Positions 1,131 through 17,385 of a DNA stretch of 42,461 nt are shown piece after piece (the stretch's first letter is position 1; every line of letters starts with the position of its first letter). A program made the translations under genes and the position numbers. The notes below the pieces were generated by a model. That model was not told where the DNA came from, made no database searches, and saw nothing but the letters and a program-made list of their open reading frames with translations. Origin of the DNA: Gemmatimonadota bacterium (GTDB lineage Bacteria; Gemmatimonadota; Gemmatimonadetes; Longimicrobiales; Gaopeijiaceae); the NCBI GenBank assembly GCA_003564295.1, contig PXFI01000355.1:1-42461 (forward strand), written 5' to 3'.

Positions 1131-1277
1131 GAAGCTACCCGAAGGGGTCCCTTTTCCCGAGCCAGGTCCCGGGAGAAGTGTTCACTTTGATCAGGAAGCG
1201 AGCTTGGTGGTGCGCACCGGCTCCGGCCGGCCGCGAAGCCCCCCTCGACGCCGGGCACACCGAGATTGAAACCTGCC

Positions 1278-4200
1278 ATGAGCGAAAAGAAGAGCCAGCC
1301 TGCCGTCTCCCGTTCCCGGAAGGATTCGCCCACACTGGACGCGGTGTGCAGGCATCTGGAGCGGGCGCTGCCCGGCGCCGAAGCGCCCATCGTGGTGGCG
1401 TTCACCAGGAGCTTCCTGGCCAAGGCCCCGCAGGAGCTGCTCCACGAGCGGAGCGTGGACGCCCTGGCCCACCTGGCCCTGGCGTCGTTCCGGTTCCTGG
1501 AGCGGGCCCGGCCGGATCAGATTGACGTGGAGGTGGGAAACCCGGACATCGAAAACGAGGGCTGGTACGCGCCGGTCACGGTCATCCGGACGCACGTCTC
1601 GGACCGGCCCTTCATCCTGGACACCATCCGCGAGTTCCTCCACGCCCGGGATCTGGCCATCGAATACATGATCTACCCTGTGCTGGACGTGAACCGGGAC
1701 GAGGAGGGGAGGCTGCTGGCTCTGCGCCCCCGGGGGGAGGGAGAGCACAGGGAGTCGCTTGTGCACTGCGAGATCCATCAGGTCCGGGATCCGGGGAAGC
1801 TGGAGGAGCTGCGTGGTGGACTGGAGCGCCAGCTTTGGGATGTCCTTCGAGCCACCCGGGACTTTCCGCGCATGGTGGACCAGGTCAACCGTGTGGTGGC
1901 GGAGCTGGCCGAGCTGCCTGGGAAGTGGGAGGACCGGCGGGACGAGGTGGAGGAGATCCAGGCCTTCCTCAGGTGGCTGCGGGACGAGGGCCTCGTCTTC
2001 CTGGGATATTGCGGGTACGACCTGCAGGCTGGCTCGGAGGGAGAGCTTCTGGTGAGCGTGACGCCCGAGTCGGGGATGGGCGTCCTGGACGACGAGGAGA
2101 AGGAGCGCTTCCCGAGCCCGCTGCCCTTGCAGTCCCTGGAGGCGGCGCAGCGCGAGACCCTGGAGCGTGATCCCATCCTCACCGTCAGCAAGGCCGCGGC
2201 TGAGGCCACCGTGCACCGCCGGGTCCGCATGGACCACATCGGGGTCAAGAAGCTGGGGCCGGACGGCGAGGTGTTGGGGGCGCATCGCTTCGTAGGACTC
2301 TTCACGTCGAAAGCATACGCCGAAAACGCCGCCAACATCCCCATCCTTCGGCGCAAGCTCCGCACCATCCTGCACGAATCGGGGCTGGGCGAGGGTTCCC
2401 ACGACCACAAAAAGACCATCGCGATCTTCAACTCCCTGCCCAAGGAAGAGCTGTTCGTGGCCCCCGTGGAGCAGATCGGCCAGGACATCCGGACCGTCCT
2501 GACGTCGTACCACAGCGGCGACGTGCGCGTGTCTCTGCGTGAGGATCCCCTGGGCCTGGGGGCCGCAGTAATGGTGATCATCCCCAAGGACCGGTTCTCC
2601 GGAGAGATCCGCAAGCGCCTGGAGTCGGCGTTCCGGAAGATCTTCCAGGGCGAGATTCTCAACTACCACCTGGCCATGGGCTCGGGCGATCAGGCACGCC
2701 TTCACTTCCACTTATCAACGTCGGCGGAGGCGCTACGCAGCGTGGATACGGAAGGCATGAGGCGCACGGTGCAGAGCATCATCCAATCTTGGGCCGACAA
2801 GGTGCGGGAGAGACTGGAGCAGATGCTGCCGGGGGACGAGGCCCGACGCCTGGCGGTGCGGTACGGCGAGGAGTTCAGCCCCGAGTACCGGGCGGCCACA
2901 GACCCGGCCACTGCCGTGGAGGACCTGCTGGAGCTGGAGGCGATGGCGGCCGAGGGGCGGGTGATCTCCATATCCATGGCGAACCGGGGGACCGCCGCCG
3001 CCCCGGGGGTGGAGGGGGTCACCGAGCTGAAGTTGATGCTCAGGGGGGAACGGCTCATCCTCTCCGATTTCATGCCCATCCTCGAGAATGCGGGGCTGCG
3101 GGTTATGGGGGTGGCTCCCTTCAATGTGGGCGGCGTGGACGGGGGTGCCGCCATCCATGCCTTCGCCGTCCAGGACGGGTCCGGAGAGCCGCTGGACGTG
3201 GGAGGGCGGGGCACGCTCCTGGCGGAGGCGATCCTGGCTGTGCGGCGGGGCGACGCGCTAAACGACACGCTCAACTCGCTGGTGCTGAGTGTCGGGCTTC
3301 ACTGGCGGGAGGTGGACGTGCTGCGTGCCTATGTGGGCTACGCATTCCAGGCCGGGGCGGTGCCCAGCCGGCGAACGCTCCCCAACGTGCTTTCGGCGTA
3401 CCCGGGGGTCGCACGGGAGCTCTTCGACCTCTTCCGGAGCCGGTTCGACCCTTCGACGGGAGCGTCTGCCGCCGACAGGGAAGCGATCGCGGCGGACATC
3501 CGCTCCGCGTTCGTGGCCTCCCTCCAGGGCGTGTCGGCGTTGGGCGACGACCGGGCCCTCCGCCGCCTGGAGGAGCTCATTTCCGGAACGCTGCGCACCA
3601 ACTACTACCGGTGCGGGGGCCGCACGCCCACGGTCCGCTCCGGAGGGGTGCCTTATCTGTCCTTCAAGTTCTCCAGCACCGACATCGAGGTCCTGAGGCC
3701 GTCGCGCCTCCGGTTCGAGTTGTGGGTGCACTCATCCCGTATGGAGGGGGTCCACCTGAGGGGCGCCAAGGTCGCCCGGGGCGGGATCCGGTGGAGCGAC
3801 CGTCCCGACGACTTCCGCACGGAGGTACTGGGCCTGGTGAAGACCCAGGTGGTGAAGAACGCCGTGATCGTGCCCGGCGGCTCAAAGGGCGGGTTCATCA
3901 TGCGGCAGTCGCCGGAGGACCCTGAAGCCCGCTTCGCAGAGGCGCAGGACCAGTACGAGACCCTGGTGCGGGGTCTCCTGGACCTCACCGACAACCTGGA
4001 CACCGGCGGGGAGGCGGTCCCACCCCAGGACTTGGTCTGCTTCGACGAGCCGGATCCGTACTTGGTGGTGGCTGCGGACAAGGGCACGGCGACGTTCTCG
4101 GACGTGGCCAATGCCATCGCCGCCGAGTACAGCTTCTGGCTGGGAGACGCCTTTGCCTCGGGTGGCTCCAACGGATACGACCACAAGAAGGTGGGCATCA

Positions 4201-6170
4201 CGGCCCGGGGTGCCTGGGAGTGCGTCCGGCGTCACTTCCAGGAGATGGGGAAGGACATCCAGGAGGAGCCGTTCACAGTCGTGGGGATCGGCGACATGAG
4301 CGGTGACGTCTTCGGCAACGGGATGCTCCTGTCACGGCAGATTCTCCTCATGGCCGCCTTCGACCACCGCCACATCTTCATCGATCCCGACCCCGACCCG
4401 GCGAGCACGTACCAGGAGCGGAGCCGCCTGTTCGCTCTGGGCTCCTCGTCTTGGGCGGACTACGACACCGGGCTCCTCAGTCGAGGTGGGATGATCGTGC
4501 CCCGTGGCTCCAAGGAGGTGGAGCTCTCCCCCGAGGCCCGGGCGGCGCTGGCGCTGGCCGAGGACGCCCCCCAGGTGCTGGATGGCGAAGCTTTGATCAG
4601 GGCCGTGCTCCGGGCTCCCGTGGAACTCTTCTGGAACGGGGGGATCGGTACCTACGTGAAGTCGGCGCTGGAGACCCACGCCGACGCCGGCGACCCGTCC
4701 AACGACGCCGTGCGGGTCAACTCCCATGACTTGCGGTGCCAGGTGGTGGGGGAGGGTGGCAACCTGGGCTTCACCCAGCGGGCCCGCATCGAGTTCGCCC
4801 TTGCCGGTGGGCGGTTGAACACCGACGCGCTGGACAACTCGGGCGGCGTGGATATGTCGGACCACGAGGTGAACCTCAAGATCCTCCTTGCTCCTGCGGT
4901 TTCCGCAGGCCGGTTGTCTCGGGAGGGGCGGAACGCGCTCCTGGAGGAGCTCACCGAGGAGGTGGCGGAGCTCGTTCTGGACAATAACCGTACGCAGAGC
5001 CTGGCTGTATCGCTGGACGAGCTGCGGGCGAAGGAAGCTCCCGATCGCTTCCGGGATCTCATGATCTCCCTGGAGAAGTCGGGAGAGCTGAACCGGGCGT
5101 CGGAAGCATTGCCGTCCACGGACGTCATCGTGGAGCGGCTCGAGGAAAGGCGCACGCCCCTGGTCCGCCCGGAGCTGTGTATCCTGCTGGCCTACGCCAA
5201 GCTCTCGCTGAAGACCCGGCTGCGCCGGGGGGAGCTGGTGGACGACCCGGCCAACGCCCAGTACCTGGAACGGTACTTCCCGCCCCCCGCGGTGGAGGCG
5301 GTGGGCCCGGAGGTGCTTGAAGGGCACCGCCTCCGCAGGGAGATCGTGGCCGGACAAATCGCCAACGCGTTGGTAGACCTCATGGGGGCCACCTTCGTGG
5401 ATCAGATGGTCCGGGAGGCCGGACGGACCCCCGAGGAAGTGGTGCGGGGGTGGCTCGTGGCGTCCAACCTCAGGGAGTACCGCTCCGTCATGGCCAGGAT
5501 GGCGTCACAACGGCGTGGCCTCCCCGCCAGTGTGGTCTACCGGTGGCTCCTGAGGTTGGGCCGGGTGCTGGAACGCACCACCCGGTGGGTGATGCAGAAC
5601 GTGGACTCGGGGCTTCCCATCGGCGCGGTGGTGCGGGAGTACACCGACACCACAGCCCAGGTGCGGGCTGCGTTCCACGAGCTGGTCCGGGGCCAGGAGC
5701 GCGACGTCTTCGAGGACCGGGTGGCGGAGCTCCGGGAGGTGGGCGCCGGGGAGGAGTTCGCCAGGGAGCTCATCACCCTGTGCTTCTTGGACCAGATCCT
5801 GGAGGTGGCCAGGATCAGCCACGCCACCGGGGTGTCGGCCGCCCGGGCCGGGGAAGCGTTCTACCAGGTGTCCGACGCGCTGGACATCCCCGGCATCCGG
5901 GAGCTGACCGGCGTCCCCAGAGGGGGGAGTCACTGGGAGCGACGGGCGGCGCAGGCGCTGGGAGAGGAGCTGTTCCGGGCCCACCGGGCACTGGTGATGG
6001 CCACCCTCGCCAAGGGCTCGTTGGACGACCTCCTGGCCTCGGCTCCCCGGGAGCTGGGGCGCTTCCGGGCCACCGCCGGCGAGCTCAAGGCGGAAGGCGC
6101 CGGCGGGCTTGCCGGCGCCTCCGTGGCGGTTGGGGAACTCGCCGCCCTGGCGGAGCGGGTTGCCGGATAG
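1278..6170 (+). CDS. gdhB: NAD-specific glutamate dehydrogenase, large bacterial type
   Basis: A 1630-residue protein of the large (GDH-180) NAD-dependent glutamate dehydrogenase family, which oxidatively deaminates glutamate to 2-oxoglutarate and ammonium in the cytosol, mostly for catabolism. The length fits this family. The first roughly 700 residues are the regulatory part. The catalytic region shows GGIRWSDRPDDFRTE near residue 833 and KNAVIVPGGSKGGF near 860, with the substrate-binding and catalytic lysines. A Rossmann segment VVGIGDMSGDVFGNGML starts near 1001, and the C-terminus is helical. A TTG at 1266 is in frame, but the ATG at 1278 (MSEKKSQ) is the more natural start; neither has a strong Shine-Dalgarno sequence. 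It stands alone, 85 bases before the tyrosine operon promoter region. Glutamate is the amino donor for Tyr and Trp synthesis, but a regulatory link is only inference. The symbol is tentative. Confidence 0.93.
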   Translation: MSEKKSQPAVSRSRKDSPTLDAVCRHLERALPGAEAPIVVAFTRSFLAKAPQELLHERSVDALAHLALASFRFLERARPDQIDVEVGNPDIENEGWYAPVTVIRTHVSDRPFILDTIREFLHARDLAIEYMIYPVLDVNRDEEGRLLALRPRGEGEHRESLVHCEIHQVRDPGKLEELRGGLERQLWDVLRATRDFPRMVDQVNRVVAELAELPGKWEDRRDEVEEIQAFLRWLRDEGLVFLGYCGYDLQAGSEGELLVSVTPESGMGVLDDEEKERFPSPLPLQSLEAAQRETLERDPILTVSKAAAEATVHRRVRMDHIGVKKLGPDGEVLGAHRFVGLFTSKAYAENAANIPILRRKLRTILHESGLGEGSHDHKKTIAIFNSLPKEELFVAPVEQIGQDIRTVLTSYHSGDVRVSLREDPLGLGAAVMVIIPKDRFSGEIRKRLESAFRKIFQGEILNYHLAMGSGDQARLHFHLSTSAEALRSVDTEGMRRTVQSIIQSWADKVRERLEQMLPGDEARRLAVRYGEEFSPEYRAATDPATAVEDLLELEAMAAEGRVISISMANRGTAAAPGVEGVTELKLMLRGERLILSDFMPILENAGLRVMGVAPFNVGGVDGGAAIHAFAVQDGSGEPLDVGGRGTLLAEAILAVRRGDALNDTLNSLVLSVGLHWREVDVLRAYVGYAFQAGAVPSRRTLPNVLSAYPGVARELFDLFRSRFDPSTGASAADREAIAADIRSAFVASLQGVSALGDDRALRRLEELISGTLRTNYYRCGGRTPTVRSGGVPYLSFKFSSTDIEVLRPSRLRFELWVHSSRMEGVHLRGAKVARGGIRWSDRPDDFRTEVLGLVKTQVVKNAVIVPGGSKGGFIMRQSPEDPEARFAEAQDQYETLVRGLLDLTDNLDTGGEAVPPQDLVCFDEPDPYLVVAADKGTATFSDVANAIAAEYSFWLGDAFASGGSNGYDHKKVGITARGAWECVRRHFQEMGKDIQEEPFTVVGIGDMSGDVFGNGMLLSRQILLMAAFDHRHIFIDPDPDPASTYQERSRLFALGSSSWADYDTGLLSRGGMIVPRGSKEVELSPEARAALALAEDAPQVLDGEALIRAVLRAPVELFWNGGIGTYVKSALETHADAGDPSNDAVRVNSHDLRCQVVGEGGNLGFTQRARIEFALAGGRLNTDALDNSGGVDMSDHEVNLKILLAPAVSAGRLSREGRNALLEELTEEVAELVLDNNRTQSLAVSLDELRAKEAPDRFRDLMISLEKSGELNRASEALPSTDVIVERLEERRTPLVRPELCILLAYAKLSLKTRLRRGELVDDPANAQYLERYFPPPAVEAVGPEVLEGHRLRREIVAGQIANALVDLMGATFVDQMVREAGRTPEEVVRGWLVASNLREYRSVMARMASQRRGLPASVVYRWLLRLGRVLERTTRWVMQNVDSGLPIGAVVREYTDTTAQVRAAFHELVRGQERDVFEDRVAELREVGAGEEFARELITLCFLDQILEVARISHATGVSAARAGEAFYQVSDALDIPGIRELTGVPRGGSHWERRAAQALGEELFRAHRALVMATLAKGSLDDLLASAPRELGRFRATAGELKAEGAGGLAGASVAVGELAALAERVAG

Positions 6171-6218: not shown

Positions 6219-6247
6219 TTGACAGCCGGATCCCTCTCCCGTTAGCA
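6219..6247 (+). promoter_or_regulatory. Promoter of the tyrosine operon leader
   Basis: Perfect -35 TTGACA (6219-6224), a 17-nt spacer, then TTAGCA (6242-6247) in the -10 position. The usual distance puts the start at about 6253-6256, on the first base of the leader ORF ATG at 6255. The layout closely matches the trp leader promoter at 8941-8969 (TTGACA, 17 nt, TTAACC), which supports both. Confidence 0.6.
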
Positions 6248-6254
6248 TCGGCAC

Positions 6255-6335
6255 ATGATGCGACGCCTCAGCTATTACGCCTATTCGTATGCGACCCGTT
6301 CTGCGGGCCGCGGGGGGAGGCGTATGCGCGACTGA
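6255..6335 (+). CDS. Tyrosine-rich leader peptide of the aroF-tyrA operon
   Basis: A 26-codon ORF starting ATGATG and ending TGA, containing the run SYYAYSYA: four Tyr codons at positions 7, 8, 10 and 12. It lies directly before a terminator and a DAHP synthase / chorismate mutase / prephenate dehydrogenase operon, all of which serve tyrosine synthesis. Known attenuator leader peptides carry clustered codons of the end product so that ribosome stalling reports scarcity of that charged tRNA. Tyrosine is therefore the inferred signal. There is no Shine-Dalgarno sequence, and the ATG falls at the predicted transcription start, so it appears leaderless. The last Tyr codon ends at 6290, 7 bases before the antiterminator segment begins at 6298. 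Confidence 0.8.
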
Positions 6336-6377
6336 CGGCGCATCACAAGACCCGAGATCCCGAGCGGCCCGTGGAAT
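6298..6377 (+). promoter_or_regulatory. Antiterminator pairing of the tyrosine attenuator
   Basis: Bases 6298-6311 (GTTCTGCGGGCCGC) can pair without a break with 6364-6377 (GCGGCCCGTGGAAT): 14 pairs, three of them G-U. The second arm contains the whole 5' arm of the terminator stem, so the two structures exclude each other. A ribosome stalled on the Tyr codons leaves 6298 onward free. A ribosome that reaches the stop at 6335 covers it and lets the terminator form. A competing small hairpin (CCCG 6295-6298 with CGGG 6304-6307) could sequester the first arm. Confidence 0.7.
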
Positions 6378-6395
6378 CCCCGCGGGCCGTTTTTT
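6365..6395 (+). terminator. Intrinsic terminator of the tyrosine attenuator
   Basis: Stem CGGCCCG (6365-6371) with CGGGCCG (6383-6389), an 11-nt loop, then six T (6390-6395). It lies 29 bases after the leader stop codon and 43 bases before the aroF ATG. That position inside an operon leader, rather than after a gene, marks it as an attenuator. Confidence 0.8.
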
Positions 6396-6438
6396 CATGC
6401 ACCTCCCCCAGGGAGCACGAGAGAGAGACGGAAACTCC

Positions 6439-7494
6439 ATGATCATCATCACACGCTCCGGCATCACCGACGCGGAAATCGACCACATCCGGGAACGGGT
6501 GGAGAGCCTCGGCATGCGGACTCACATCTCCAGGGGTGAGCAGCGCACCATCATCGGGTGCATCGGTGACGAGTCCTTGTTGCACGAGGTGGCACTGCTG
6601 GCCCTCCCGGGGGTGGAGTCGGTCACTCCGGTTCTGAAACCCTACAAACTGGTCTCCAGGGAGTTCGTGGATTCCCCTAGCGTGGTGAGGGTAGGGAACG
6701 GAGCCACGGCCGTGGTGGGGGGGAGGGACCTGGCCGTAATCGCGGGGCCCTGCTCCGTTGAGGGGCGCCAGATGCTGTTCGACACGGCCAGAACGGTGAG
6801 AAGCTACGGCGCCGGGCTGCTCCGGGGAGGCGCCTTCAAGCCTCGCACCTCCCCTTACGCCTTTCAGGGCATGGGGCAAGCGGGCCTCCATCTGCTGGCG
6901 GAGGTACGGGCCGAGACGGGTCTTCCCGTGGTTACGGAGGTCATGGACACGCGCCAGGTGGAGCTGGTGGCGGAGCATGCGGACATGCTCCAGGTGGGGG
7001 CTCGCAACATGCAGAATTTCGCCCTTCTGGGAGAGGTGGGGCGGGTCCAGAGGCCCGTCCTCCTTAAGCGAGGGCTATCGGCAACCATCAAGGAGCTCCT
7101 CATGTCGGCAGAGTACATCATGGCCCAGGGGAACCGGGAGGTGGTCCTGTGCGAGCGGGGAATACGGACCTACGAAACGGCCACCCGCAATACTCTGGAC
7201 GTGGCTGCCATACCCGTTTTGAAAGCCGAGACCCACTTGCCGGTCCTGGTGGATCCAAGCCACGCTGGAGGGCGGGCCGAACTGGTTGCGCCCCTGGCCT
7301 TCGCGGCCATCGCAGCCGGTGCTGACGGACTCATGGTAGAAGTGCACCCCAACCCCGAGAATGCCCTCTCCGACGGGGACCAGTCCCTGACCTTCCCGGC
7401 GTTTCGCCAGTTCATGGAACGGCTCCGCCCCTTCGCTGAGGCGGCGGGACGCGCCCTGGCCCCGTGCAGAGTGGGGAGGGAGGTGGCAGCATGA
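6439..7494 (+). CDS. aroF: DAHP synthase, first enzyme of the shikimate pathway (tyrosine operon isozyme)
   Basis: A 351-residue 3-deoxy-7-phosphoheptulonate synthase, joining phosphoenolpyruvate and erythrose 4-phosphate. Residues 1-75 form the ferredoxin-like regulatory domain known from the Thermotoga/Bacillus type (starts MIIITRSG). The barrel follows, with the signature segments [50 protein letters not shown] and [13 protein letters not shown], which carry the PEP, sugar-phosphate and metal ligands. The frame is open 50 codons upstream, through the attenuator terminator, but the ATG at 6439 matches the family N-terminus. The stop overlaps the next start (ATGA). Its place behind a Tyr-codon leader and before tyrA suggests it is the tyrosine-controlled isozyme. 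A second copy ends the trp operon at 16270-17385. Confidence 0.95.
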
Positions 7495-7898
7495 TGGTTC
7501 ATGAGCCTGAAGACGCTGTGAAGGCCGCCGGGGGGAGCAGCGAAGAGGTGGAGGATGTCCGGGTTTCCGGAGAGACGAACACTGGACGTGGGGAGGAGGG
7601 CAGGGAAGGGCACAACGCGACGGCCCCCCGGGAGCGACTCGAGGACCTTCGGGTCGAGATCCAGGATATCGACCGGGAATTGGTCCAGCTCTTGGCGCGG
7701 CGGGTCTCCCTGGCTCGGGCGGTGGGAATCGTCAAGAGAGAGTTGGGGATGCCGGCCCTGGATCCAGCCCGGGAGGCAGCCGTGGTGCGTCATGCCGGGG
7801 CCATGGCCCGGGAAGCCGGGGTGAGAGACGAGGAGGTGCGGCACATCTTCTGGCACCTCATCGGCCTGGCTCGGCGGGCCCAATTGGAGGAGGAGTGA
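7491..7898 (+). CDS. Chorismate mutase, AroQ class
   Basis: A 135-residue protein whose residues 45-130 match the all-helical AroQ chorismate mutase fold, which rearranges chorismate to prephenate. Visible signature: [32 protein letters not shown], quoted here in parts as [19 protein letters not shown] then a Lys (VGIVK) 13 residues on. These supply the usual Arg, Arg and Lys of the active site. The first 45 residues are an acidic, low-complexity extension. The ATG at 7491 overlaps the aroF stop and has a purine-rich GGGAGG-like ribosome site upstream; an ATG at 7494 follows directly. The 3' end overlaps tyrA by GTGA, so translation is probably coupled. It supplies prephenate to TyrA. I leave the symbol blank because aroQ is used here for the dehydroquinase. 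Confidence 0.9.
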
Positions 7899-8944
7899 AG
7901 GGCCGCGGCGGGGTGGGCGAGGGCTGGCACCCTGCAGGCGCTCGAATCGGCATCGTGGGACTCGGTCTCATCGGTGGTTCTCTGGCCCGGGACCTGGCGG
8001 CTCTGGGGGCCTACGTTCTGGGCTTCGATCTGGATCCGGAGACGTTGAGGGCCGCCACAGACGGCGGCGCGGTTCACGAAGGGCTCCCCGGCGGTCTTCA
8101 TGGTGGGGGGCTCGATTCCTCTGCCCTGGCCTCGCTCCCCTTGGACGCCCTCGTCCTGGCGGTCCCGGTGCAGGCTGCCATTCCCCTCCTGGCTGCCGCA
8201 GCCCCTCATCTCGAACACGTGTCGTTGGTGATGGATGTGGGAAGCACCAAGGCCAGTATTTGGGCGACAGCCGTGCGCCTTGGCCTCGGTGGCAGGTTCG
8301 TGGGCTCCCACCCCATGGCCGGTAGCCATCTCTCAGGTTGGGAGGCTTCCCGGGCGGGGCTCTTCCAAGGAGCCCGGGTCTACCTCTGCCCGGTTCTGGA
8401 GGTGGGTGACGGGGCTGGCAATGCTGCCGACGGCGGGGCCGGTGGGGAGGCCCATGATGAGGCTGGCAACGGGATCGGCGATGAAACCGGCGGTGAGACA
8501 GGTGAGGCAGTTGTTCCCGAAGCCCTTCGCCGTGCCCAAGGCCTGTGGACCGCCGTGGGAGGGGTGCCCCAGCTCATGGATGCTGTCGCCCACGACCGCC
8601 TCCTGTCCTGGACCAGCCACCTTCCCCAGGCTGCGTCCACCGCTCTTGCCCGGGCCCTGGCCGGGGCCGGCATCCGTTCCGGCGATCTTGGCCCGGGGGG
8701 CCGCGATATGACCCGGCTGGCTGGAAGCTCGGCCTCTCTCTGGACGGGTATCACCCTGGACAACGCAAGAGCCCTGGCGGAGGGACTGAGAGCCCTGGAA
8801 GCGGAGCTGGCCCGGCTTCGGGAGTGGCTGCTTGCCGGGGATCGCGACAGAGTGGAGGAGTTTTTCGCCAAGGGGGCGTCCTGGTCGTCGTCGCCAACAC
8901 CGCATCGCACGCGGAAGGAGAGAGTCCACAGGTCCGACCCTTGA
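7895..8944 (+). CDS. tyrA: Prephenate (or arogenate) dehydrogenase
   Basis: A 349-residue TyrA-family oxidoreductase, the committed step to tyrosine. An N-terminal Rossmann motif IGIVGLGLIGGSLARDL (residues 18-34) binds NAD(P). VGSHPMAGSH (around 137-145) carries the catalytic His, and HLPQAAS lies in the C-terminal dimerisation domain. It starts with GTG overlapping the chorismate mutase stop (GTGA). Residues about 171-205 are a Gly/Ala/Glu/Asp-rich insertion with GNAADGG and GNGIGDETGG units, not usual in the family and probably a surface loop. There is no ACT domain, so regulation may rest on the operon attenuator, which is an inference. Prephenate and arogenate use cannot be separated by eye. 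Its stop codon lies inside the -35 of the trp promoter. Confidence 0.92.
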   Translation: MKGRGGVGEGWHPAGARIGIVGLGLIGGSLARDLAALGAYVLGFDLDPETLRAATDGGAVHEGLPGGLHGGGLDSSALASLPLDALVLAVPVQAAIPLLAAAAPHLEHVSLVMDVGSTKASIWATAVRLGLGGRFVGSHPMAGSHLSGWEASRAGLFQGARVYLCPVLEVGDGAGNAADGGAGGEAHDEAGNGIGDETGGETGEAVVPEALRRAQGLWTAVGGVPQLMDAVAHDRLLSWTSHLPQAASTALARALAGAGIRSGDLGPGGRDMTRLAGSSASLWTGITLDNARALAEGLRALEAELARLREWLLAGDRDRVEEFFAKGASWSSSPTPHRTRKERVHRSDP

Positions 8945-8969
8945 CATAGCCCCCTGAATGTGCTTAACC
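8941..8969 (+). promoter_or_regulatory. Promoter of the trp operon leader
   Basis: Perfect -35 TTGACA (8941-8946) overlapping the tyrA stop codon, 17 nt, then TTAACC (8964-8969). The expected start is about 8976, within 3 nt of the leader ATG at 8979. Spacing and the TTARC -10-like element match the tyrosine leader promoter. There is no terminator between tyrA and this promoter, so readthrough from the tyrosine operon would also pass the trp attenuator. Confidence 0.6.
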
Positions 8970-8978
8970 CTTCTCATC

Positions 8979-9068
8979 ATGACGAAGCGTACTCTATCTC
9001 CCGCGATGGCCGGATGGGGCTGGTGGTGGTGGCCTTGGGGGGAGGAGTGCGCCATTGCCGGTGGTTGA
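8979..9068 (+). CDS. trpL: Tryptophan-rich leader peptide of the trp operon
   Basis: A 29-codon ORF containing GWGWWWWPWGEE: six Trp codons at positions 13, 15-18 and 20, a density that cannot be chance in front of trpE. The function is ribosome-mediated sensing of charged tRNA-Trp, as in enterobacterial trpL. There is no Shine-Dalgarno sequence, and the ATG lies at or within 3 nt of the predicted transcript start, so it appears leaderless or nearly so. The last Trp codon ends at 9038, and the antiterminator arm begins at 9040. Confidence 0.88.
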   Translation: MTKRTLSPAMAGWGWWWWPWGEECAIAGG

Positions 9069-9119
9069 TGGACTGAACAAGTAGATCCGGCGACGATCCA
9101 GGGCGGGCGCGCTCTTCTC
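9040..9119 (+). promoter_or_regulatory. Antiterminator pairing of the trp attenuator
   Basis: Bases 9040-9053 (GGGAGGAGTGCGCC), inside the end of trpL, pair continuously with 9106-9119 (GGCGCGCTCTTCTC): 14 pairs, three of them G-U. The second arm is most of the 5' arm of the terminator stem, so only one structure can form. A ribosome stalled on the Trp codons leaves 9040-9053 free; one terminating at 9068 masks it. An alternative local hairpin is GCCGG 9057-9061 with CCGGC 9087-9091. Confidence 0.75.
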
Positions 9120-9150
9120 GAGACGAGAAGACGCGCCCGCCCCTTTTCTT
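9101..9150 (+). terminator. Intrinsic terminator of the trp attenuator
   Basis: A very strong stem: GGGCGGGCGCG (9101-9111) with CGCGCCCGCCC (9132-9142), continued after one bulged C by T9113-A9131 and CTTCTCG (9114-9120) with CGAGAAG (9124-9130), closing on a 3-nt loop. It is about 19 pairs in all. The following bases are CTTTTCTT. It lies before the trpE Shine-Dalgarno sequence, so it acts in the leader. Confidence 0.85.
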
Positions 9151-9184: not shown

Positions 9185-10828
9185 ATGAAGGCGGCAGAGA
9201 CTCTTGCGGAGGAATCCAGTGGGAGGGGGTCCGGGATGTCTGGTCCGGCAGGAAGTGCCCTCCAGGGCGCGGTCCTGGCGGCCCCATTGGACGCCGTGGT
9301 TCCCGTGTGGCGGTCCTTCTCGTCGGATACGGAGACACCCGTCTCAGCCTATCTCAAGCTTCGGCGGGGAGGCACGGGCTTTCTTCTGGAGAGCGGCGAG
9401 CAGGACGGCCGTTTGGGCCGGTTCTCCTTCGTGGGATCCAGCCCCGATGCTCTCCTCCGGGGGGACCTGGACAGGGGCACGGTGACCATGGAAGCGGGGG
9501 TCACTGCCTACCGCGGCTCACCCCTGGATGCGGTCCGGGGATTGGCTGGAGAGGTGGGGGTGTGGCGGGGAGGCGGTCCCCTTGGTCCCTCCCGGCTGTC
9601 CCTTCACTCCTGGGGGGTGGGAGCGGAGGGACTGCCGGGGTTCCTCGGGGGGCTGGTGGGGGCCTTCGGCTACGATCTCTCCCGGACTCTGGAGCGCCTG
9701 CCCACGGGACTCCCGGACGACACGGGGTTCCCAGCGGCTCTCTTTGCCCGCTACCAGACGGTCCTGGCCTTCGATCATGCCCAGCAGCGGATGACGGCGG
9801 TATCCCTCCTGCCGGCGGCTGCGGACGTTGGTTCTCGCCTGGAGGATCTGCGCCGGGCGGAGGGACGCATCGAGGGGGTGCTGGACGCCCTGCGGCGTGG
9901 GAGGGCTCCGGCGGCCGTGGAGCCGGGAGGAGGTGGGGCGGCTTCGGGTGCAAGGGCTTCGGGCTCAGACGCAGGCACGGCAGGGCTCGGTTCGCCGGGC
10001 TGGGTGCCGGACCACGAGACGTTCCTGGCCTCAGTGGCGGAGGCGGTGCGGCAGATCCGGGCCGGGGAGGCCATCCAGGTGGTTCTATCTCGGAGGCTGG
10101 AGCTGGGCTTCCACGGGGATCCCTTCGACCTGTACCGGGCCCTGAGGAGCGTGTCCCCGGCGCCGTACATGTTCTTCCTGGAGTTTCCGGAGGTGGCTCT
10201 GGCTGGCTCGTCTCCGGAGATGCTGGTGCGGGTGGAGGGGGACGCGGCCCAGGTCTCACCCATCGCCGGGACCCGGCGGCGCGGGGTGGATCCGGAGGAG
10301 GACGCCCAGATGGAGGCGGAGCTCCGGGCGGACGCCAAGGAGCGGGCCGAGCACGTCATGTTGGTGGATCTGGGGCGGAACGACCTTGGCAGGGTCTGTC
10401 GGCCTGGCTCTGTGCACGTGCCCCGCCTCATGGAGGTGGAGCGGTTCAGCCACGTCATGCACCTGGTGTCGGTGGTGACGGGGCGCCTCAGGGAGGACGT
10501 GGATGCTTTGGACGCCTTTGCCGCCTGCTTTCCGGCGGGGACCGTGGCGGGAGCACCGAAGATCAGGGCCATGGAGCTCATCGAGGAGCTGGAGACGGTG
10601 CGCCGGGGGGCTTATGGCGGAGCGGTGGCCCACATCGCTCCCGGGGCGGCAGCCCTGGACGCCTGCATCACCATCCGCACCATGGTGATCCGGCGGGGCA
10701 GGGTCCTGGTGCAGGTGGGGGCGGGAGTGGTGAACGCTTCGAAACCGGAACGGGAGCTGGCGGAGACGGAGGAGAAGGCGGAAGCCCTCCTGGCGGCTCT
10801 GGAGCTGACGGGGGTGGTGACATCATGA
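9185..10828 (+). CDS. trpE: Anthranilate synthase component I
   Basis: A 547-residue chorismate-binding subunit that forms anthranilate from chorismate with ammonia supplied by TrpG. The LLES motif near residue 64 (GFLLESGEQDGRLGRFSF) is the known tryptophan feedback site, so allosteric control probably adds to attenuation. The chorismate-binding half shows QVVLSRRLEL, SPIAGTRRRG, HVMLVDLGRNDLGRV and FPAGTVAGAPKIRAMELI. A Gly/Ala-rich linker of about 35 residues separates the halves (around 240-275). The ATG at 9185 is preceded by GGGGGAGGAAGG at good spacing. Its stop overlaps trpG (ATGA). PabB is a relative, but the operon context and the LLES site support TrpE. Confidence 0.96.
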   Translation: MKAAETLAEESSGRGSGMSGPAGSALQGAVLAAPLDAVVPVWRSFSSDTETPVSAYLKLRRGGTGFLLESGEQDGRLGRFSFVGSSPDALLRGDLDRGTVTMEAGVTAYRGSPLDAVRGLAGEVGVWRGGGPLGPSRLSLHSWGVGAEGLPGFLGGLVGAFGYDLSRTLERLPTGLPDDTGFPAALFARYQTVLAFDHAQQRMTAVSLLPAAADVGSRLEDLRRAEGRIEGVLDALRRGRAPAAVEPGGGGAASGARASGSDAGTAGLGSPGWVPDHETFLASVAEAVRQIRAGEAIQVVLSRRLELGFHGDPFDLYRALRSVSPAPYMFFLEFPEVALAGSSPEMLVRVEGDAAQVSPIAGTRRRGVDPEEDAQMEAELRADAKERAEHVMLVDLGRNDLGRVCRPGSVHVPRLMEVERFSHVMHLVSVVTGRLREDVDALDAFAACFPAGTVAGAPKIRAMELIEELETVRRGAYGGAVAHIAPGAAALDACITIRTMVIRRGRVLVQVGAGVVNASKPERELAETEEKAEALLAALELTGVVTS

Positions 10829-15368: not shown

Positions 15369-16273
15369 AAGGCGCCGAACGGCTCGCCGCCGCCTTCCGC
15401 CAGGCAAAGGAAGAGGACAGGACCGCCCTGGTGGTCTTCCTGGCCGCCGGGGATCCGGACTTCGAGACCACAGTGGAGCTGGCCCGGGCTGCCGTGGAGG
15501 CCGGGGCCGACGTACTGGAGCTGGGCGTCCCCTTCAGCGACCCCCTGGCGGACGGGCCCGTCATCCAGGCGGCCTACACCCGGGCCCTGGCCGGGGGGTC
15601 CACCACCACCGCGACCATGGACTGCGCCGCCCGGATCGCCCGGGAAACGGAGGCGCCGGTGGTCCTCATGGTGGCCCTCAACTGCGTGCTGGCCCGGGGG
15701 TTTCATGGCTTCTGTGCCGCCGCCGCCGAAGCCGGGGTGAGCGGAATCCTGATTCCCGACCTTCCGGTGGACGACGCCAGTGAGATGCGGGAGGCGGCGG
15801 AGCGGGTCGGGCTCGGAACCGTGTTCCTGGTGGGTCCCGACAGTGGCCCGGACCGGGTGGCGGCGGCAGCGGCGGCTTCCACCGGGTTCGTCTACCTCAT
15901 GAGACGCCGGGGCATCACCGGGGCCGGGAGCGGTGGGGTGGACCTGGAGCGGCGCTTGAAGGAAGTCCGGGCCGCCGGGTCGGCCCCGGTGGCGGTGGGG
16001 TTCGGCATCTCCACGCCCGAAGACGCCGCCGAGCTGGCGGGTGTGGCCGACGGGGTCATCGTGGGAAGTGTTCTGGTGGATACGGCCTTCCGGGCCCGAG
16101 CCGCTGGACGGGACGCCGGGGAAGGAATGGAGAGGGCGGTGCGGAAGGTGAAGGAGGCGGTGACGGGGCTGTCCAGGGCCCTTCATGTGGGTTCGGAATC
16201 CACGGGGGTGGCCCGGAAAAATGCGCCGGTGAGAGGTTCATCACAGAAAGCAGGGAGGCAGGACAGAGGATGA
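15365..16273 (+). CDS. trpA: Tryptophan synthase alpha chain
   Basis: A 302-residue TIM-barrel subunit that cleaves indoleglycerol phosphate and channels indole to TrpB. The catalytic Glu and Asp are in [19 protein letters not shown], loop 6 reads [10 protein letters not shown], and the phosphate site is [11 protein letters not shown]. The start is a GTG overlapping the trpB stop; the 18 upstream codons of the same frame are a shadow of trpB. About 30 C-terminal residues extend beyond the usual end. It overlaps the second DAHP synthase by ATGA. Confidence 0.95.
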
Positions 16274-17385
16274 TCATTGTCATGGAGCGGTGGGCCACGG
16301 AAGGGCAGATCGCCGACGTGGTGGCGCGCCTGGGGGAGGGTGGCGCACGGGTCCAGCGGCTGGACGGAGAGCGGGTGACCCTGGCCATCACGGGGAGCCT
16401 CAACGGCGTCGCCAGCCCCGGAGAAAGCATGGGCCCCGATGCCGTCTCGGGGATGGCGGGAGTGGCCTCGGTCCTCCGTGACATGGGGGCCACGCCCCAG
16501 GTGGCGGTGGCGGATGCCCGGGAAGGCGAGGTGCATGCCGGGGACGGAGGGGAGCCATTCTCCGAGGCCCCGGGGGCGGGCGCCGTGGCGCCGGCCCCGG
16601 AGGCCGAGCCGGGCTTCCAGGTGGGGGACCGATGGATCGGCGGCCGGGAGCTCTTCGTGGTGGCGGGGCCCTGCTCCGTGGAGGACCCGGAGACCATGGA
16701 CCGCATCGCCCGGGAGGTGGCCGCCGCCGGAGCCGGGGGCCTCAGGGCCGGTGCCTTCAAGCCCCGGAGCAGCCCCCACAGCTTCCAGGGAATGGGAGAG
16801 GAGGGCCTGGCGGTGGCCCGAAGCGCCGCGGACGCCCACGGGCTGCTCCTGGTGAGCGAGGTCCTGGACGCCACCCAGATACCCCTGGCGGCCCGATACG
16901 TGGACGTCCTCCAGGTGGGATCCCGGAACATGTACAACACCTCCCTTCTTCGGGAGCTGGGCCGGGCCCGGCGCCCCGTCCTCCTGAAGCGGGGCCTCTC
17001 CGCCACCATGGACGAGTGGCTCAGCGCCGCCGAGTACGTGGTGTCCGCCGGCAACCCCCGGGTGATCCTGTGCGAGCGGGGGATCCGGACCTTCGAGACC
17101 GCCACCCGCAACACCCTGGACCTCAACGCCCTCCCGGTGATCCGGGAGCGGAGCCGCCTTCCGGTGCTGGTGGATCCCAGCCACGGCACCGGCCGCCGGT
17201 CCTACGTCCGGGCCATGGCCCGCGCCGCCGTGGCTTGCGGAGCCGACGGGCTCCTCCTGGAGGTGCACGTGGATCCCGACCGGGCCCTCTCGGACGGTGC
17301 CCAGACCATCGATCCGGCCGGCTTGCGCCAGGTCCTCAGGGAGGCGGAGGCCATAAGAGGGGCGCTCCTGGGGGTGGAGGAGTGA
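16270..17385 (+). CDS. DAHP synthase, second isozyme at the end of the trp operon
   Basis: A 371-residue paralogue of the product at 6439, with the same barrel signatures: [71 protein letters not shown] and ALSDGAQTID. The N-terminal 75 residues look like a diverged regulatory domain. They are joined to the barrel by an Ala/Pro/Gly/Glu-rich linker at about 85-115 that the first isozyme lacks. The ATG overlaps the trpA stop, so it is the eighth gene of the trp operon and should respond to tryptophan attenuation. No T-tailed hairpin is visible in the 31 bases before the convergent aroQ gene. Confidence 0.94.
   Translation: MIIVMERWATEGQIADVVARLGEGGARVQRLDGERVTLAITGSLNGVASPGESMGPDAVSGMAGVASVLRDMGATPQVAVADAREGEVHAGDGGEPFSEAPGAGAVAPAPEAEPGFQVGDRWIGGRELFVVAGPCSVEDPETMDRIAREVAAAGAGGLRAGAFKPRSSPHSFQGMGEEGLAVARSAADAHGLLLVSEVLDATQIPLAARYVDVLQVGSRNMYNTSLLRELGRARRPVLLKRGLSATMDEWLSAAEYVVSAGNPRVILCERGIRTFETATRNTLDLNALPVIRERSRLPVLVDPSHGTGRRSYVRAMARAAVACGADGLLLEVHVDPDRALSDGAQTIDPAGLRQVLREAEAIRGALLGVEE

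Follow-up and report, generated by a model that had tools for sequence, protein, structure and literature searches.

Attenuators that act through a leader peptide are textbook regulators for Trp, Phe, His, Leu, Ile/Val and Thr. For tyrosine, attenuation of aroF-tyrA through Tyr-tRNA was reportedly hypothesised for E. coli by Camakaris et al. in 1980. aroF of Shewanella is listed as a predicted attenuation case (Table 3 of PMC2659441). The aroR-aroF system of C. glutamicum (Neshat et al. 2014) has a Phe-Tyr-Phe leader which reportedly responds to limitation for Phe and not for Tyr (PMC11802643). Before aroF of Acholeplasma, the uORFC-13-1 motif consists of a predicted uORF and terminator with a Phe codon and an RBS (PMC8632094), and in S. 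meliloti the transcript opens directly with the leaderless leader-peptide ORF trpL (peTrpL; PMC7298713). The open-licence literature searched describes no Tyr-specific leader-peptide attenuator, which is not proof of absence. These precedents agree with the initial annotation of the locus, which had called tyrosine attenuation rarely described.

Here we examine a stretch of 42,461 nucleotides (the window) from a Gemmatimonadota MAG that is 89% complete. Upstream of aroF–chorismate mutase–tyrA it carries what we take, with a probability of about 0.88, to be a ribosome-mediated leader-peptide transcription attenuator by which tyrosine supply would govern these genes. The attenuator type is known; its use for tyrosine has been proposed but scarcely documented.

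The putative attenuator sits in the gap between aroF and a 1634-codon ORF (1266–6170), which gave no match in an NCBIfam search and which we take to be a large NAD-glutamate dehydrogenase. On the 3' side of tyrA, trpE begins at 9185. A plasmid search with the attenuator region returned partial matches only, all of them within the coding part of aroF. The features of the locus are collected in Table 1.

Table 1. Features of the putative attenuator and its operon, in window coordinates.
Feature	Coordinates	Strand	Basis and remarks
Sigma-70-type promoter	6219..6248	+	Promoter scan; TTGACA 6219-6224, 18-nt spacer, TAGCAT 6243-6248
Leader ORF, 26 codons, Tyr-rich	6255..6335	+	Read directly; counterpart ORFs in 106/130 upstreams
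Regulatory block, four Tyr codons (TAT TAC GCC TAT TCG TAT)	6273..6290	+	Read directly; Tyr enrichment
Candidate protector, Tyr-codon block 6276-6282 with ORF tail 6318-6324	6276..6324	+	MFE folds; 7 bp, encloses arm 2
Antiterminator arm 2, within leader ORF	6298..6311	+	14 consecutive pairs with 6364-6377; covariation
Arm 3, common to antiterminator and terminator	6364..6377	+	Folds, alignment
Intrinsic terminator	6365..6395	+	Fold; homologues; stem 6365-6374/6380-6389, loop 6375-6379 (AAUCC), U6 6390-6395
aroF, type I-beta DAHP synthase (NF006421, TIGR01361)	6439..7494	+	Profile match
Chorismate mutase, AroQ-type	7464..7898	+	Matches consistent, though weaker than the curated cut-offs; translation probably begins at ATG 7491 or 7494
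tyrA, prephenate dehydrogenase family	7895..8944	+	Profile match

The leader ORF opens at ATG 6255 or ATG 6258 and stops at TGA 6333-6335, and its four Tyr codons begin at 6273, 6276, 6282 and 6288, with Phe and Trp codons absent. This 26-codon ORF with clustered Tyr codons ahead of the three genes had been reported by the initial annotation, and we find it at the same place. Also borne out was its 14-bp antiterminator, the pairs of which are consecutive, include G-U pairs and share arm 3 with the terminator, so that the two structures exclude one another. The terminator itself had been described with six T, which are present, and with a stem of 7 bp, which on our folding is 10 bp, or 12-13 bp in a fold that uses pairs with the U-tract. 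Folding of the terminator region gave z = -3.4, and the arm 2:3 duplex z = -3.1 relative to shuffled leader tails. A simple terminator scan reported nothing at 6365-6395, so it is the fold and the homologues that support the terminator assigned there. The window further contains a 14-nt inverted repeat, 86% complementary, between 6313-6326 in the leader tail and 6396-6409 just past the U-run.

The -35 element of the promoter, which the initial annotation had passed over, is a perfect TTGACA, and TAGCAT ends 6 nt 5' of the first leader ATG. Since this position puts the predicted transcription start at the leader ATG or adjacent to it, the leader ORF is probably leaderless and translated without a Shine-Dalgarno site. 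In 105 homologous Gemmatimonadota leaders, the distance from TTG[AC][CG] to the leader ATG is mostly 35-39 nt; a TA..T box stands at about -13..-7, and a Shine-Dalgarno signal is absent. This combination suggests that leader ORFs are leaderless across the whole family.

aroF loci were gathered from the contigs of the source genome, from 59 relatives and from a phylum sample, giving 149 loci, or 130 once identical upstreams had been dropped, a set which still contains a few nearly identical upstreams whose starts differ. A leader was scored where an ORF held at least three F, W or Y in eight codons. By this criterion an aromatic-codon leader is present in 106 of the 130 upstreams, nearly always ending 72–145 nt before aroF; it was not found in about a fifth of the sampled upstreams, partly where aroF lies in another operon or at a contig end. 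Of 127 upstreams, 71 held a small ORF with at least three Tyr in eight codons, where dinucleotide shuffles would lead one to expect 0.3; conservation of the Tyr codons was among the checks that the initial annotation had proposed. Phe runs were the only other residue runs to stand out in the same 127 upstreams (16, with 2.1 expected). An intrinsic terminator follows 101 of the 106 leaders, its U-run mostly 50-65 nt past the leader stop.

These counts bear directly on the possibility that the terminator just ends transcription of the upstream gene and that the Tyr-rich ORF is a chance frame. The terminator does lie between two genes on the same strand, and any intergenic stretch has small ORFs, but the recurrence of Tyr-rich ORFs at one place, a promoter at fixed distance 5' of the ORF and an arm inside the ORF that co-varies with the terminator arm make this explanation scarcely credible. 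One aroF-tyrA operon in the set (L114) has a leader frame that reads ATG ATA GAG TAA and stops after three codons, about 160 nt upstream of aroF, and keeps promoter-like and terminator-like parts; as a natural broken leader, it could reveal the default state.

The spacing of the arms is likewise conserved. Counted from the first base of the last aromatic codon, the start of arm 2 lies at a median distance of 13 nt (middle half 11-14 nt), about one ribosome edge. The arms were then compared by permutation in 68 divergent representatives, clustered at about 72% identity, in which the arm 2:3 duplex reached -19.3 kcal/mol with its own partner and -15.9 (sd 0.36) with permuted ones. In a sequence-only MAFFT alignment of 54 sequences, pairing reached 97% in the terminator, where 101 two-sided compensations were counted (shuffled 35, sd 7.5, maximum 51), and 75% in the antiterminator, where there were 90 of them (shuffled 47, sd 7.3, maximum 67). 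These counts overstate significance, because shared ancestry survives the shuffling. Both stems therefore display the covariation that the initial annotation had proposed to look for. Arm 3 positions 6371 and 6372 co-vary with arm 2 (6304, 6303) and also with arm 4 (6383, 6382), and such three-way compensation is hard to explain other than by conserved structures.

A further reading has the same terminator controlled in another way, by a T-box, a riboswitch or an arrest sequence in the nascent peptide. T-boxes commonly govern tyrosine genes in Firmicutes, and motifs in the peptide tail such as TGR and MGPG are conserved. Against this, a search with Rfam covariance models of the window and 12 related loci found no match to any family at gathering scores, and the peptide motifs 3' of the aromatic block (TGR, MGPG, GSPG, EGR) coincide with the coding of arm 2, where ACGGGCCG encodes T-G-R, and change where the arm changes. 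Arm 2 thus explains the peptide tail, and we consider a control of this kind very remote.

To compare codon identity with operon content, downstream genes were classed by iterated tblastn. Leaders before aroF–CM–tyrA (n=40; CM, chorismate mutase) have block means of 3.9 Y, 0.9 F and 0.05 W, and those before aroF–pheA (n=5) of 1.4 Y, 3.2 F and 0.8 W. The means are 2.7 Y, 1.5 F and 0.2 W where only CM was found with aroF (n=13), and 2.2 Y, 1.4 F and 0.9 W where no CM, tyrA or pheA was found within about 2 kb (n=37). In raw counts the association gives Fisher p ~1e-10 for Trp; after phylogenetic pairing the match of codons to operons is not significant, the aroF tree giving three supported independent contrasts, which are too few. 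The pattern fits selection on codon identity.

It also addresses the reading in which the leader responds to the aromatic amino acids as a group, chiefly to Phe as in C. glutamicum aroR, with Tyr codons only part of the signal. Leaders of relatives do mix Phe, Tyr and Trp where tyrA does not follow aroF, and aroR, with its FYF, is reported to answer Phe rather than Tyr limitation (PMC11802643). In the window, however, the leader holds Tyr and neither of the other two, and among the aroF-CM-tyrA leaders at least three Tyr are present in the block in 38/40 and any Trp in 2/40, so that general sensing is highly unlikely here. Three aroF leaders (L104, L110 and L111) mix Tyr, Phe and Trp codons (e.g. 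MRKFGGRFYRWWYFYPSLSGGGGGAGV), with neither tyrA nor pheA found downstream; they are candidate all-aromatic attenuators of a lone aroF.

Conservation, covariation, spacing and a codon identity that matches operon content together lend strong support to a Tyr-codon attenuator as read from sequence, and this part of the initial annotation stands. Its predicted signal is charged tRNA-Tyr.

The same annotation had placed a ribosome at the leader stop (6335) on top of the first antiterminator arm, and this part does not hold. We modelled the ribosome as a 30-nt mask at each codon, extending 14 nt upstream, and computed P(2:3), for the antiterminator pairing, on a transcript lacking arm 4. The computed mean P(2:3) was 0.78–0.89 as long as the A-site had not passed the last aromatic codon, and ~0 when it stood at +12 to +30 beyond that codon. 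With the ribosome on the stop codon, P(2:3) was 1.0 in the window and 0.45 in the mean. In the positive controls, E. coli trpL and pheL, a stalled ribosome gave values of 0.99 and 0.84, and a ribosome at the stop gave 0.0. In the model, stalling on Tyr would accordingly free the antiterminator as in classical attenuators.

A ribosome on the stop codon of the window has its A-site at 6333 and a footprint of about 6316-6345, which lies 3' of arm 2. An attenuator gated by a stop-codon ribosome that covers arm 2 would match E. coli trpL and pheL, with their P(2:3) of zero at the stop, as well as a Desulfobacterota version described below, and a footprint reaching more than 14 nt upstream would partly cover the arm. 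In the window, 22 nt lie between the end of arm 2 and the stop, which puts the arm outside the 30-nt footprint; in relatives the median distance is 20 nt. We consider this form of gating unlikely. Because a ribosome on the stop leaves arm 2 exposed, we infer that masking of the arm occurs while the ribosome crosses the 13-codon tail, and termination at plentiful tyrosine would need either timing or another structure.

A candidate protector is the helix formed by the Tyr-codon block and the ORF tail. At least five of these pairs were present in the ribosome-free leader folds of 44 of 63 relatives, with a median estimated barrier to the antiterminator of 9.7 kcal/mol, and cognate pairing of block and tail (-10.55) exceeded permuted pairing (-8.77, sd 0.30). 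These folds point, with moderate confidence, to the helix as a candidate protector that would make the untranslated leader terminate. A local 1:2 hairpin at 6289–6312, just past the last Tyr codon, was also considered as the main protector; it reaches -12.6 in the window and cognate folds there beat permuted ones, but covariation in the alignment does not support it and its barrier to 2:3 is ~3 kcal/mol, by which it would be easily displaced, and it was rejected.

The Tyr-codon attenuator would then operate as follows. Transcription would begin at the leader AUG, and the leader ORF would be translated without a Shine-Dalgarno site. When charged tRNA-Tyr is short, the ribosome would stall in the Tyr block, its leading edge reaching only the start of arm 2; it would break the pairing of Tyr block and ORF tail, arm 2 could capture arm 3, and once arms 2 and 3 are paired the terminator would be blocked and the operon transcribed. 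When tyrosine is plentiful, the ribosome would move on over the 13-codon tail and keep arm 2 masked as RNA polymerase transcribes arms 3 and 4, allowing the terminator to form and transcription to stop before aroF. If the leader is left untranslated, the protector would probably hold arm 2 closed. Within this scheme, leaderless translation, timing, the role of the protector and the response to charged tRNA-Tyr are what we infer.

As regards membership in the class of leader-peptide attenuators, the locus has the codon cluster, the terminator and an exclusive antiterminator with covariation, and by computation a stalled ribosome leaves the antiterminator arm free. Masking of the arm by a ribosome at the stop, the E. 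coli trp/phe geometry, is absent; this trait is usual and we do not take it as class-defining.

The surroundings of the operon contain further elements of aromatic biosynthesis. A Trp-codon leader, MTKRTLSPAMAGWGWWWWPWGEECAIAGG (8979-9068), precedes trpE, with a promoter-like TTGACA (8941-8946) close to its ATG and a strong terminator at ~9101-9142, followed by a T-run, between the leader and trpE; it is probably a parallel Trp attenuator, also leaderless. A second type I-beta DAHP synthase (16270-17385) lies directly after the ORF at the trpA position and is apparently under trp operon control. It thus seems that each aromatic branch in the source genome is served by a separate DAHP synthase and a separate attenuator, an arrangement that parallels the branch-specific DAHP synthase isozymes of E. 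coli. Prephenate dehydratase (PF00800) was not found in the source MAG, where at 89% completeness it may lie on a missing contig; 14/14 control genomes have it.

Tyr-rich leaders were also found at Desulfobacterota aroF loci (L038, L042, L044–L046, L049, L065 and most of L212–L219), for example MNSGLYYYWFYYYPLGGTASGMLGN. They mostly have purine-rich, Shine-Dalgarno-like sequences, and their terminator U-run lies ~50–60 nt past the stop. Where analysed, arm 2 adjoins the stop, and a terminating ribosome would cover it; these leaders seem to be a second version, one whose geometry is classical. In L217, L218 and L219, two apparent tandem terminators follow one Tyr/Phe-rich leader ORF before aroF.

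All of this can be drawn into one joint reading, to which we give an even chance: an aroF attenuator family in Gemmatimonadota (and, perhaps separately, Desulfobacterota) in which regulatory codons are exchanged to suit the operon, Tyr for aroF-tyrA, Phe for aroF-pheA and all three where aroF stands alone. In this reading the Gemmatimonadota type is leaderless and gated by an elongating ribosome that crosses arm 2, not by one parked on the stop. A Tyr version conserved in two phyla would fill a gap, the idea being decades old and aroR, the one tested aromatic leader that includes a Tyr codon, being reported as not responsive to Tyr. Because Tyr, Phe and mixed leaders replace one another naturally on a single scaffold, specificity is open to direct testing. 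The unusual position of the stop raises the question of what secures termination when no ribosome is parked on arm 2. With a second DAHP synthase after trpA, in a trp operon preceded by a Trp leader of its own, the arrangement also suggests branch-specific control of DAHP synthases by RNA.

Among described systems, C. glutamicum aroR is alike in placing an aromatic-codon leader before a DAHP synthase gene, where ribosome stalling relieves termination; it has one Tyr codon, whereas the window has four, an aroF-CM-tyrA operon and a different phylum as its host. The E. coli and Shewanella proposals share the operon idea and the signal but are proposals for which a Tyr leader peptide is not known to have been described; the upstream region of aroF in E. 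coli K-12, which we examined, lacks both a Tyr-rich leader ORF and a U-run close to the gene. Acholeplasma uORFC-13-1 resembles the window in its uORF and terminator before aroF, and differs in its Phe codon, its RBS and its phylum. The trpL leader of S. meliloti is leaderless, as proposed here, but has Trp codons and precedes trpE(G), not aroF. E. coli trpL and pheL share with the window the regulatory codons, the terminator, the exclusive antiterminator and, by computation, a stalled ribosome that exposes arm 2, whereas the window uses Tyr in place of Trp or Phe, is probably leaderless, and has its arm 2 within the ORF, uncovered when the ribosome stands at the stop.
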